Assembly (NCBI GenBank): GCA_903842505.1
Contig: CAIMMI010000087.1
Span: forward strand, 1-53,194
Reading direction: 5' to 3'
DNA length: 53,194 nucleotides
Origin: an uncultured Verrucomicrobiota bacterium
GTDB lineage: Bacteria; Verrucomicrobiota; Verrucomicrobiia; Limisphaerales; UBA9464
In this document: piece after piece, positions 41,824 to 46,911 of the stretch
How positions within the stretch are numbered: position 1 is the first letter of the stretch
Layout of the letters: each line of letters starts with the position of its first letter
Notes under the pieces: generated by a model
The model's database searches: none
Seen by the model: only the letters and a program-made list of their open reading frames with translations
What the model was told of the DNA's origin: nothing
Translations under genes and position numbers: made by a program

Positions 41824-44322
41824 ATGTCCACCAAAGTCTGGCTCCCGATCCTCCTCGTGGGCGCCGTCACCGGTGCCACCGGCTACCAACTGGGCCGCCG
41901 CCAAGCCCCGGCACCAGCCCCCGTGGATTCGCGCCGGGTCGAGACGACGGGCGCCCCACGCAGCTTCCCGGCCGTTCCCTCGACCACACCGCCGCCCCGC
42001 ACCAACGCGCCGTCAGCTCAGTTCGGCACCCTCGAATCCAGGCTCCGGGCCGTCCTCCGCGAACATCCCAACCGCCGCTGGATGCGCCTGTCCGACATCG
42101 CCCGCACCATCAAGCCCGGCGAGGCCATCGACGCGATCCAACTCGGCAATTCGATCCTGCCGCCGGGCTTCCGGGACAACTTCCGGCAGCAGGTCCTCGA
42201 ACACTGGGCCGAGGTCGAACCGCTGGCTGTCCTGCAATACGGACAGGATCTCAAGGACCGCAACGAACGCATCCAGGCCCTCCGCCCCGCAGTGACCGAG
42301 TGGGCCCGACGTGATGCCAGCACCGCCCTGGCCTGGATCCAGAAATTGCCCACCGGCGTGGAACGACGCGTACTGCTCAACGCCGCCATCCACGGACTCG
42401 CCGAGGTGGACCCATCCGCGGCTTCCGCACAGATTGAAGCCCTGCCGGCCCAAGAGCGCCACGAAGCCCGCCGCGCCGTCATCGCCAGCATCGCGGAGTC
42501 CGATCCCTTGCGCGCCGCGCAAATGGCGATGGAGATGCAATCCAAGGGACTCGGCCAACGTGGCGGGGCCAACCTCCTGACCATGGTCGTCCAGACCTGG
42601 TCCCAGAAGGAACCGGAGGCCGCCATCGCCTGGTGCCGGAAGCTGCCCGCCAACTCCCAGACCCAGCGGATCCTCGTCGAGGCCAGCCAGAGTATCGCCT
42701 GGCAGGACCCGAAGACCGCCCTCGCGTTGGCCAGCCTCATCTCCTCCGGAAAGCAGCGGGAACAGGCCGTCGGCAACGCCCTGACCACCATGTCCCAGCG
42801 GAACCCGGAGGCCGCCCGCGAATACCTCGCAGGTCTCGCCGAAGGCCCTGAGCGGACCACCGCGATCCTCGCCATCGCCCAGGGGATGAACCAGGACCCG
42901 GTCGCCGCCGCCGAACTCCTCAAGGGCGTGAAGAACATCGGCGACCGCGGCTGGGCCTTCCACAATGTCGCCAGCGAACTGGCCCAGCAGGATCCCTCCG
43001 CCGCACTGACCTGGGCGCGCGCCCTGCCTACCGGCCCCGGTCGCGAACAGGCGCTGGCTGGCGTCTTCGCGGGCTGGGCGCAGAATGATCCCGCCGCCGC
43101 CGCCAAGGCTTCCCTCGAACTCCCGCCGGGCACCGCACGCACCCAGGCCATGGGTCAACTCCTCCAGGCGTGGGCCTCCCAGGACACCTCAGCCGCCCTC
43201 GACTGGCTGAAACAGGTTCCCTCAGAAAGCCACCGGCGCGAGATCACCCAGCACCTGATCTGGTCGATGGACGGATCCGACCCCAAGCCTCTGGCCGATT
43301 TCTTCTCCGGCCTGCCCGCCGGTGATTCCCAGCGCCAGATGATCGGTGACCTCGCCGGCCGATGGGCGGACACCGACCTCGACGGGGCGCTCGAATGGGC
43401 GAAGACGCTCCCGGAAGGTCGGGCCCGCGCCGCCGCCATGACCCGGCTTTCCCACCAGTGGGCCGAACAGAACCCTGCCGACGCCGCGGGCTTCGCGAAG
43501 GAACTTCCCCCGGGCGAACTCCGGAGCCAGATGCTCGCCACCGTGGCCGAACGTTGGGGCCAGTCCGAACCCGAGCAGGCCGCCAAGTACCTCCTCGAAC
43601 TTCCCGCCGACAGCGCCCGCCGTGGCGCCCTCCAGAACCTGCTCTCCAACTGGGCCGGCAACGATCCCAAGGCCGCCGCCGCCTTCCTGGACGACCTTCC
43701 CGCCAACATCCCCCGGGACAGCCTCGCCGAAGGTCTCGCCAACCGCTGGGCCAGCCAGGATCCCGCCGCCGCCCTCGAATGGGCCAAGGGACTCACCGAT
43801 CCCGAGGCCCGCAAGGCCGCCATGACTTCCGCCCTCGGCAGTTGGGCCCACTCGTCCCCAGCTGAGGCTGCCACCTTCGCCGCCCAGATCCCCGCCGGCC
43901 CCGAACAGGAACGGGCCGTCACCGCCGTCCTCAACGACTTTGTCCGCATCGATCCCACCCGCGCCGCCGAGTGGATCACCCGCTTCCCCGAAGGCGAACT
44001 CAGGTCCCAGGCCAACAACATCCTCCTGAACCAGTGGACCCGCGAGAACCCGGCCGCCGCCGCCGAATGGCTCAACCAGATGCCGGAATCCCCATCCCGC
44101 CAGCAAGCCATCCAGACCTTCGTCTCCCAGGCCTCCAACCAGGAACCCGAGGCCGCCTGGAACTGGGCCGGCGCCGTCACCGAGGACTCCACCCGCGCCT
44201 CCCTCCTCGAGTCCGCTGCCGCCCAGTGGATGCGCCTCGACCCCGCCAAGGCAGCCGTCGCCATCCAGGCCTCCAAACTCCCACCGGAAGTCATCGAACG
44301 CCTCCTCAAGTCCCCGGAGTGA
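41824..44322 (+). CDS. Membrane-anchored protein of about 21 tandem 32-residue helical repeats
   Basis: 832 residues. The N-terminus (WLPILLVGAVTGATGYQLG) is a signal anchor, followed by a Pro/Ala-rich linker and a helical region. From about residue 159 to 815 the protein consists of about 21 repeats of 31-33 residues with the pattern xxDPxxAAxWxxxLPxGxxRxxAxxxLxxxWA; examples are QQDPSAALTWARALP and SQDPAAALEWAKGL. The pattern predicts a solenoid of paired helices like HEAT or TPR, good for binding other proteins in the periplasm. No enzyme motif is seen. It is a free-standing gene with repeat DNA on its downstream side. Confidence 0.8.
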   Translation: MSTKVWLPILLVGAVTGATGYQLGRRQAPAPAPVDSRRVETTGAPRSFPAVPSTTPPPRTNAPSAQFGTLESRLRAVLREHPNRRWMRLSDIARTIKPGEAIDAIQLGNSILPPGFRDNFRQQVLEHWAEVEPLAVLQYGQDLKDRNERIQALRPAVTEWARRDASTALAWIQKLPTGVERRVLLNAAIHGLAEVDPSAASAQIEALPAQERHEARRAVIASIAESDPLRAAQMAMEMQSKGLGQRGGANLLTMVVQTWSQKEPEAAIAWCRKLPANSQTQRILVEASQSIAWQDPKTALALASLISSGKQREQAVGNALTTMSQRNPEAAREYLAGLAEGPERTTAILAIAQGMNQDPVAAAELLKGVKNIGDRGWAFHNVASELAQQDPSAALTWARALPTGPGREQALAGVFAGWAQNDPAAAAKASLELPPGTARTQAMGQLLQAWASQDTSAALDWLKQVPSESHRREITQHLIWSMDGSDPKPLADFFSGLPAGDSQRQMIGDLAGRWADTDLDGALEWAKTLPEGRARAAAMTRLSHQWAEQNPADAAGFAKELPPGELRSQMLATVAERWGQSEPEQAAKYLLELPADSARRGALQNLLSNWAGNDPKAAAAFLDDLPANIPRDSLAEGLANRWASQDPAAALEWAKGLTDPEARKAAMTSALGSWAHSSPAEAATFAAQIPAGPEQERAVTAVLNDFVRIDPTRAAEWITRFPEGELRSQANNILLNQWTRENPAAAAEWLNQMPESPSRQQAIQTFVSQASNQEPEAAWNWAGAVTEDSTRASLLESAAAQWMRLDPAKAAVAIQASKLPPEVIERLLKSPE

Positions 44323-44342: not shown

Positions 44343-44449
44343 CAAGTTTCAAGATTCAAGTTTCAAGCCAACGGTGGGGCGAGTCCCCACGAGCCGCCGA
44401 GCAGTCCCAGTTTTCAAGCCATTCAAACTTGAAACTGAAATCTTGAAAC
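44343..44449. repeat. Core repeats around a single GGTGGGGCGAG arm
   Basis: CAAGTTTCAAGATTCAAG lies at 44343-44360, an arm GGTGGGGCGAG with GAGCCG at 44373-44396, then TTCAAACTTGAAACTGAAATC at 44423-44443 by pieces. It is a rearranged or partial copy of the inverted-terminal-repeat element; no right-hand terminus was found. It occupies the gap before the EF-hand gene. Confidence 0.6.
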
Positions 44450-44661: not shown

Positions 44662-46911
44662 ATGGCCAGCCATCAATGGAAATTCTTCCGCGCGGGCGGA
44701 TTTGATCAGGTCAAACTCGAGAGCGGCGCTGACCTCCTCAACCTCGATCAACTCGATCAGAAACTCTGGGTCGCCCTCGCCTGCCCCACCAATGGCCTCG
44801 AGTTCGATCCCAAGACCGCTGCCCTCATCGACACCGACAAGGACGGCCGCATCCGCGCCAACGAACTCATCACCGCCATCAAGTGGGCCGGCGGCCTCCT
44901 CAAGAACGCCGACGACCTGATCAAGGGCTCCGCAACCCTCCCCCTCGCGTCCATCAACGACGCTACCCCCGACGGCAAGGCGGTCCTCGCCTCCGCCCGT
45001 CAGATCCTCGGCAACCTCGGCAAGAAGGACGCCACCACCATCGGCCTCGACGAAGTCGCCGACACCGCAAAGATCTTCGCCCAGACCCTCTTCAACGGCG
45101 ACGGCATCGTCCCCGCCGATTCCGCCTCGGATGACGCCACCAAGGCCGCCATCAGCGACGTCATCGCCTGCGTCGGCTCAGTGACCGACCGCTCCGGCAA
45201 ACCCGGGGTGAACGTGGCCCTGGTCGAGAAATTCTTCGCCGAGGCCGCCGCTTTCGACACCTGGATCACGAGGTCCGAAACCGAAGCCGCCACCCTCCTG
45301 CCGCTCGGAGCCGCCACGGCCGACGCCGTCGCTGCCGTGAAGGCCGTGAAGACCAAGGTCGATGACTACTTCGGCCGTTGCCGCCTCGCCGCCTTCGATC
45401 CCCGCGCGCTCGGCGCGTTGAACCGCGAGGAGAAGGAATACCTCGCCATCGCCGCCAAGGATCTCCAGATCACCGCCGCCGAAGTCGCCGGATTCCCCCT
45501 GGCGCAGGTCGCCGCCGGCAAACCCCTGCCCCTCGGCACCGGCATCAATCCTGCCTGGGCCGCCGCCATCGGCACGCTCATTGCCGCTGCCGTGAAGCCC
45601 GTCCTCGGCGTCCGCGACAGCCTCACCGAAGCCGACTGGGCCGCCCTCCTCGGCAAGCTCGGTCCCTTCGAGTGCTGGAGCGCCGGGAAGGCTGGAACCA
45701 CCGTCGAGAAGCTCGGCAAGGATCGTGTCCGCGCCCTGCTCACCTCCGGTTCCAAGGCCGCGATCCTCGCACTCATCGCCCAGGACAAGGCCCTCGAAAC
45801 CGAAGCCAATGCCATCTCGACCGTCGAGAAACTCATCCGCCTGAACCGGGACCTGTACCGGCTCGCAACGAATTTCGTGAACTTCAAGGACCTCTACGAT
45901 GCCGGCGAAGCCGCCATCTTCCAGGTCGGCACCCTGTTCCTCGACCAACGCTCCTGCACCCTCTGCATCACCGTCGAGGACGCCGGCAGACACGGCACCA
46001 TGGCCGGACTCGCTGGCGCCTACCTCGCCTACGTCGACTGCGTCCGCAAGGGCTCCGGCGAGAAGCTCTCCATCGTCGCCATCTTCTCCCAGGGCGATGA
46101 CGACAACCTGATGGTCGGCCGCAACGGTCTGTTCTACGACCGCAAGGGCAAGGACTACGACGCCACCATCACCAAGATCATCGCCAACCCGATCTCCCTC
46201 CGGCAGGCCTTCTGGTCCCCGTACAAGAAGTTCGTCCGCCTCATCGAGGAACAGGTCGCCAAACGCGCTGCTGCCGCCGATGCCGACGCCAACGCCAAGC
46301 TCGCCGCCGCCGCCGCCGCGACCGCCAATGCCGACAAGGCCGCTCCGGCACCCGCCGCGGCCGAACCCAAGAAGATCGACGTCGGCATGGTCGCTGCCCT
46401 GTCCGTCGCCTTCGGCAGCATCGGCACCGCCTTCGCCTACGTCCTCGGACTGTTCAAGGGCGTCACGCCGCCCCAACTGCTCCTCGGCTTCATCGGCGTC
46501 ATCGCCCTGATCTCCGGGCCGTCGATGATCCTCGCCTACATCAAGCTCCGGAAGCGCAACCTCGGCCCCATCCTCGATGCCAACGGCTGGGCCGTGAACG
46601 CCGCCGCCAAGATCAACGTGCCTTTCGGCACCTCGCTCACCGGCATCGCCCAGCTCCCGCCGGGATCCTCCGTCGACTACAACGACTCCTACGCCGAGAA
46701 GAGCTTCCCCTGGAAGATGTGGCTCGCCGTCATCCTCTTCGCCTACCTCGGGTTCAATTACTATCAAGCCAAGTACGATGACTCCCTGCCCAACGCCGTG
46801 AAGAGCACCGAACTGCTCGGCAAGCTCTCGCCCAAGTACGTGGATCCCGCCAAGGCCACCAAGACCGACTCCACCAACGGCCCGGTCAAGGCTCCCGAGC
46901 CCGCCAAGTAA
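44662..46911 (+). CDS. Large EF-hand membrane protein of unknown function
   Basis: 749 residues. An early EF-hand calcium loop DTDKDGRIRANE (57-68) has all ligand positions. The long middle part is alanine-rich and mostly helical with LNREEKEYLAIAAKDLQIT; a CTLC pair (Cys432, Cys435) sits in FLDQRSCTLCITVEDAG. An Ala-rich linker (about 530-570) leads to three membrane helices near 575-600, 605-628 and 684-702, and the C-terminus is polar. Proteins of this build are known only as EF-hand domain proteins. A calcium-responsive envelope role is plausible but unproven. A strong terminator follows 35 bases after the stop. Confidence 0.8.
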   Translation: MASHQWKFFRAGGFDQVKLESGADLLNLDQLDQKLWVALACPTNGLEFDPKTAALIDTDKDGRIRANELITAIKWAGGLLKNADDLIKGSATLPLASINDATPDGKAVLASARQILGNLGKKDATTIGLDEVADTAKIFAQTLFNGDGIVPADSASDDATKAAISDVIACVGSVTDRSGKPGVNVALVEKFFAEAAAFDTWITRSETEAATLLPLGAATADAVAAVKAVKTKVDDYFGRCRLAAFDPRALGALNREEKEYLAIAAKDLQITAAEVAGFPLAQVAAGKPLPLGTGINPAWAAAIGTLIAAAVKPVLGVRDSLTEADWAALLGKLGPFECWSAGKAGTTVEKLGKDRVRALLTSGSKAAILALIAQDKALETEANAISTVEKLIRLNRDLYRLATNFVNFKDLYDAGEAAIFQVGTLFLDQRSCTLCITVEDAGRHGTMAGLAGAYLAYVDCVRKGSGEKLSIVAIFSQGDDDNLMVGRNGLFYDRKGKDYDATITKIIANPISLRQAFWSPYKKFVRLIEEQVAKRAAAADADANAKLAAAAAATANADKAAPAPAAAEPKKIDVGMVAALSVAFGSIGTAFAYVLGLFKGVTPPQLLLGFIGVIALISGPSMILAYIKLRKRNLGPILDANGWAVNAAAKINVPFGTSLTGIAQLPPGSSVDYNDSYAEKSFPWKMWLAVILFAYLGFNYYQAKYDDSLPNAVKSTELLGKLSPKYVDPAKATKTDSTNGPVKAPEPAK

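Follow-up and report, generated by a model that had tools for sequence, protein, structure and literature searches.

What does a long repeat protein of an uncultured verrucomicrobial bacterium do, and on which side of the membrane? The stretch of DNA analysed here (53,194 nucleotides; the window) carries a gene whose product the sequence-only reading had described as a signal-anchored solenoid of about 21 near-regular repeats of 32 residues. The open reading frame is real and had been described accurately: orthologues of the same length, 66% identical to the window protein in L034 and 46–49% identical in four further genomes of the genus, confirm a product of 832 amino acids, and its start methionine aligns with theirs. 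The gene and its parts are as follows.

41824..44322, plus strand: solenoid gene, 832 amino acids (open reading frame; same-length orthologues; conserved start)
41836..41895, plus strand: hydrophobic, signal-anchor-like N-terminal segment, residues 5–24 (hydrophobicity; anchor-like segment in most full-length orthologues)
41896..42024, plus strand: linker rich in Pro, Ala, Ser and Thr, residues 25–67 (sequence; pLDDT below 50 for residues 1–66)
42031..42216, plus strand: four predicted helices preceding the regular repeats, residues 70–131 (secondary structure of the model)
42217..44238, plus strand: 21 two-helix repeats, residues 132–805, 18 of them exactly 32 residues long (autocorrelation, hand parse, models)
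44239..44319, plus strand: partial 22nd repeat and C-terminal end, residues 806–832 (hand parse; comparison with relatives)

The 32-residue periodicity is far beyond chance. Autocorrelation of residues 116–832 with a substitution matrix, against a background of 200 shuffles, gave z scores of 19.5, 17.2, 16.5 and 12.6 at lags of 32, 64, 128 and 96, and a parse by hand yielded 21 full repeats, the three that deviate from 32 residues being 31, 36 and 31 long, followed by a C-terminal remnant of 27 residues. The repeat number, the period and the span read from the letters (about 650 residues; 674 measured) all hold, as does the motif DPxxAAxW...LPxGxxRxxA, which agrees with the strongest consensus positions of the parse (D1, P2, A5, W8, L12, P13, G15, R18, A21, L25, W29 and A30). 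Across six genomes of the genus, repeats of the same index are 53% identical (n = 270), against a mean of 24% for repeats of different index within one protein (n = 918), and the array is therefore old and mostly fixed in order. Among nine orthologues, a repeat was matched best by the one of the same index in 926 of 1,296 cases. Units have also been gained or lost, since several paralogues are short by about two repeats and L047 by one. Recent tandem amplification is ruled out by the low identity between different repeats and by Tandem Repeats Finder, which found no DNA-level repeat within the solenoid gene. Just past its stop codon, at window positions 44343–44367, a 7-bp unit, CAAGTTT, is present in 3.6 copies.

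The regular solenoid that had been proposed is borne out by AlphaFold models that contain helices only. The full-length model, built from two sequences (the window protein and L034), had no strands (pLDDT 77.8, pTM 0.42), its low pTM meaning that it does not fix the overall superhelix of the full rod, and it showed no helix in the low-confidence residues 1–66. A four-repeat unit (repeats 13–16), modelled with an alignment to the other units in the window protein and L034, reached a pLDDT of 88.4 and a pTM of 0.76. In the models, shorter helices (about 10 residues) alternate with longer ones (about 17). Compared with known structures, the models read as an alpha-solenoid and nothing more specific. 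With the full model, Foldseek returned importins, SF3B1, mTOR and PPR10, at TM-scores of at most 0.32 among the best 50 matches, and VIA-align placed PPR10 first (rmsd 27.1 over 472 residues) at Z 13.0, a level common for repeats. With the four-repeat unit, Foldseek found no match at E 0.001, and VIA-align ranked the C-terminal helices of aminopeptidase N first (Z 9.6, rmsd 3.0, 125 residues; next 9.4), with a designed helical repeat at Z 8.7 after the aminopeptidase N matches. Matches in a viral structure library were generic repeats. Many of the generic alpha-solenoid matches of the models are scaffolds for binding, PPR and importin/HEAT proteins among them.

Profile searches with relatives went beyond what had been seen in the window protein alone, revealing a phylum-wide family with a sigma-fused form. 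A match was present in 43 of 58 related genomes (own genome included), and near full-length orthologues were found in five of the eight other genomes of the genus; the three with no full-length match are 96, 66 and 91% complete. A profile of 18 relatives found matches in 79 of 288 phylum genomes, the window's own among them, and in 70 out of 120 from the family of G317. The window protein has the profile match, the N-terminal segment and the repeats that characterize the family, the match arising by construction because it is one of the 18. Its own genome also encodes a paralogue (G000:C350; 31–36% identity in three pieces), which in L035 is 790 amino acids long. There was no match among 72,556 plasmid records.

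The best clue to the function of the family is its fusion to sigma factors. Such fusions are rare: of 105 called repeat proteins, 104 of them distinct, three are fused. They come from three genomes in two genera (g48 and g195) that belong to a single family, and in each a single open frame encodes sigma-70 regions 2 and 4, both above the Pfam cut-off, then a hydrophobic segment, then the solenoid: L116:3370-5925 (149 bits to the family profile), L155:2614-5082 on the reverse strand (133 bits) and L156:3562-5964 (192 bits). At 133–192 bits the fused solenoids are distant from the family; they reach the C-terminus. The hydrophobic segment lies between about residues 225 and 271 and is preceded by lysine, and L116 and L155 show a further, less hydrophobic window around residue 181 (1.56 and 1.51). 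A single membrane crossing is likely but not certain. It would place the solenoid outside; if both windows cross in L116 and L155, the solenoid there would be cytoplasmic. The other eight sigma hits in called neighbours come from five loci chosen for a sigma match (L157, L158 and L161–L163) and from L120, L197 and L219, the only loci not so chosen that have a sigma gene nearby. In the five chosen loci, ECF factors from the same bacterial family as the fusions contain a similar hydrophobic part but end in different C-termini. In L117 (G142:C32), similarity to the post-sigma region of the fusion (L117:4249-4378) begins ahead of the point at which an unfused solenoid gene was called to start, and the match holds two stop codons, as if a fused gene had split.

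ECF sigma factors extended by TPR units make up group ECF42. TPR-rich, WD40-like (ECF57) and transmembrane (ECF48/52/53) C-terminal extensions of ECF factors have been described (PMC8999054), and the three fused relatives resemble these in having an ECF sigma factor and a hydrophobic segment ahead of the solenoid, which is itself absent from the extension types in the accessible part of that source. The window protein differs in having no sigma domain, sigma-70 regions 2 and 4 being absent from its Pfam hits. The fusions thus suggest a signalling role for part of the family and prove nothing for the window protein. Among titles and abstract openings, a scope outside which subscription papers mostly fall, we recognised no description of this repeat or of sigma–solenoid fusions.

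The signal anchor proposed for the window protein holds in one respect: there is a single hydrophobic stretch, at about residues 5–24, with a best 19-residue Kyte–Doolittle mean of 1.37 against 0.84 past residue 40. Its hydrophobicity is only moderate, however, and the model forms no helix there, which leaves anchoring by this segment likely but short of certain. Among 64 distinct relatives, 44 have a clearly hydrophobic segment at the N-terminus. Basic residues, counted with the amino group, are more numerous on its N-terminal side in 22 of these 44, equal in 19 and fewer in 3; the 20 proteins omitted from the count include the window protein, at 1.37 just under the threshold of 1.4, as well as genes that were truncated or called from a wrong start, and the three sigma fusions. 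Around the segment of the window protein itself, charge is ambiguous (K4 before, RR after), and L034 likewise has two arginines right behind the segment, with at most one basic residue ahead of it. The extended periplasmic scaffold of the sequence-only reading is plausible, with indirect support from the N-in bias of the relatives and from the sigma fusions, although no conserved neighbour supports it and the protein's own charges are ambiguous. On these two lines of sequence evidence, we infer that the solenoid lies on the outer side.

The opposite arrangement, a membrane-tethered scaffold with its N-terminus out that faces the cytoplasm and holds cytoplasmic proteins at the membrane, strikes us as unlikely. 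It would suit the paired arginines of the window protein and L034, the second weak hydrophobic window in two of the fusions and the housekeeping genes that adjoin several relatives, for example the accC-like gene (named by eye) beside a paralogue in L035 and L048. Against it stands the charge bias of the relatives, 22 to 3 in favour of N-in, together with the weaker point of a low cysteine content, 0.17% in the family compared with 0.95% in the called neighbours. As proof of export, cysteine depletion carries little weight: single cytoplasmic proteins of the window, RpoN and ribosomal L4 (named by eye), are equally poor in cysteine, and some called neighbours are spurious.

We give about an even chance to the reading that we favour, in which the window protein is a membrane-tethered, probably extracytoplasmic, protein-binding alpha-solenoid that acts as a receptor or scaffold and belongs to a family widespread in Verrucomicrobiota. 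The N-terminal segment would hold the protein in the inner membrane, most likely with the N-terminus inside, and the flexible Pro/Ala-rich linker would carry the rod, 21 helix pairs long, at the periplasmic face. Since no catalytic domain can be recognised in it, binding is the most likely mode of action of the rod; judged by its fold class, it would most likely bind proteins or peptides along its surface, as the ectodomain of a receptor or scaffold. In the three fused relatives, the solenoid makes up the C-terminal end of an ECF sigma factor that would be tethered to the membrane, and the solenoid's state would presumably be passed to transcription; the window protein, which has no output domain of this kind, would serve as a stand-alone binding platform. 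A bolder version, which we regard as quite improbable, would make these proteins lineage-specific periplasmic receptor solenoids, the fused forms being one-piece transducers (from ligand through solenoid and membrane to sigma factor) and the stand-alone, sometimes tandem forms co-receptors or decoys. If true, Verrucomicrobiota would have a sensory module of their own, made from a class of repeat outside the libraries searched. The family is spread through a little-studied phylum, and the sigma fusions offer a concrete, testable handle on otherwise hypothetical proteins.

The surroundings of the gene bear on whether it has a dedicated partner. Upstream in the window lie a DUF1501 gene, a PPC-domain gene and a 190-aa gene, in that order. 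Gaps of 171 and 339 bases flank the solenoid gene and suggest that it stands on its own; a scan for consensus promoters and terminators found none. On its downstream side, a 749-aa protein with an EF-hand match below the cut-off is encoded at window positions 44662-46911, and a gene of this kind adjoins the solenoid gene both here and in L037; beyond it, on the other strand, is what we take by eye to be a pyruvate carboxylase gene. Among 110 loci (95 with a called solenoid gene), surveyed by protein clustering in 22 and by reading the gene lists of the others by eye, no family of neighbouring genes was seen to recur outside close relatives. Of the 15 loci with no called solenoid gene, five (L157, L158, L161, L162 and L163) had been chosen for their sigma match, and in the other ten the gene caller, which is home-made and codon-based and produces some spurious neighbours, had missed it. 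Genes common near relatives (named by eye) are pyruvate kinase in L038–L040, accC in L035 and L048 and the EF-hand-like gene in the window and L037. An operon partner common to more than close relatives was not seen, and the survey of homologues' neighbours, which had been proposed as a check, gave no conserved neighbour in support of a dedicated scaffolded complex.

This pattern leaves some room for a repeat protein that is dispensable, binds no specific ligand and serves the envelope only as structural bulk. Its presence is patchy, conserved neighbours were not seen, and conservation is concentrated at the structural consensus positions with no strong surface patch, so that a single conserved ligand is harder to argue for. 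We nonetheless rate dispensability as rather improbable, given that orthologues at 34–66% identity keep long open frames with the order of the array intact and that the family is widely spread in the phylum.

The favoured reading of a binding solenoid also has to be set against catalogued repeat families. The window protein gave four Pfam hits (E 0.19–2.4) and a single NCBIfam hit (E 0.14), all far below cut-off and none left in searches at E 0.1 and 0.01, in keeping with the earlier view that it holds no catalytic domain. Its best match in the PDB by sequence had E 1.3, and the best of 16 matches in a PDB profile search, at E 0.037, was not meaningful. The caution that the repeats could not be assigned to TPR, HEAT or Sel1 with certainty was well founded: TPR, Sel1, PPR and HEAT models were absent from the window protein's Pfam hits at E 5, were above cut-off in none of the 18 relatives (TPR_16 alone appeared, in one, at E 0.03) and did not match two consensus arrays. 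The family shares stacked, antiparallel helix pairs with these alpha-solenoids, and they are its generic matches in fold searches; it differs in its 32-residue unit, with a short first and a long second helix, and in its own consensus, DPxAAxxW..LPxG..R..A...L...WA. TPR, PPR and Sel1 repeats have periods of 34–36 residues, and TPR helices are not known to follow the short-first, long-second pattern. That the array is a divergent subgroup of a catalogued repeat such as TPR or Sel1, as its two-helix units of similar length, the TPR_16 match and the first rank of PPR10 in one list might suggest, is thus very unlikely in the face of these profile results, helix lengths and period. The window protein is of a known kind, an alpha-solenoid, whose repeat family is not placeable in the libraries searched. 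With up to 21 units per protein and no entry in Pfam or NCBIfam, this family would enrich catalogues of repeat proteins and might serve as a design scaffold.

Two catalogued families did emerge among the relatives. DUF4214 (PF13946) was matched at E 0.1 by 2 of 18; one consensus array scored 30.7 bits and L019, among ten members viewed singly, barely passed its low cut-off (24.2 against 23.2 bits). These matches are within noise, because the reverse of the other consensus array hits unrelated families comparably strongly, and the window protein has no match. Nucleoporin ELYS (PF13934) was matched at E 0.1 or better by 10 of 18 relatives, and one of the ten members viewed singly, L047 (L047:6470-8863), passed the cut-off as a whole protein (48.8 against 28.8 bits). 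The reversed L047 sequence had no match at E 0.1, and the resemblance therefore depends on sequence order, not on composition alone. The ELYS scores are, however, sums over repeats: scored place by place, 29 related genomes reached 20.9 bits at best, short of the cut-off, and the 15 genomes from which the 18 relatives come, that of L047 included, gave no signal anywhere. As the window protein has no ELYS match either, membership was ruled out and ELYS remains a lead. PVC membrane-coat-like proteins offer a related likeness, stacked helix pairs in PVC bacteria, along with the weak ELYS resemblance; as defined in the accessible part of the source, they require an N-terminal beta-propeller followed by the helix pairs (PMC2799638), whereas the window protein has an N-terminal hydrophobic segment instead, with no strand in a model whose residues 1–66 are of low confidence. 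Distant kinship with ELYS or these coat proteins, and with it a role in membrane shaping, is accordingly highly improbable.

Beside the unassigned family, some arrangements recur at individual loci. Ten loci hold two adjacent solenoid genes on the same strand (L116, L117, L155, L159, L189, L190, L191, L192, L195 and L205). In two genomes of the genus, a second paralogue directly follows the accC-like gene (L035:5453-7825 and L048:5191-7491). In L217, L218 and L222, from three genomes, genes resembling a response regulator and a histidine kinase (by eye) adjoin the solenoid gene in a conserved order.
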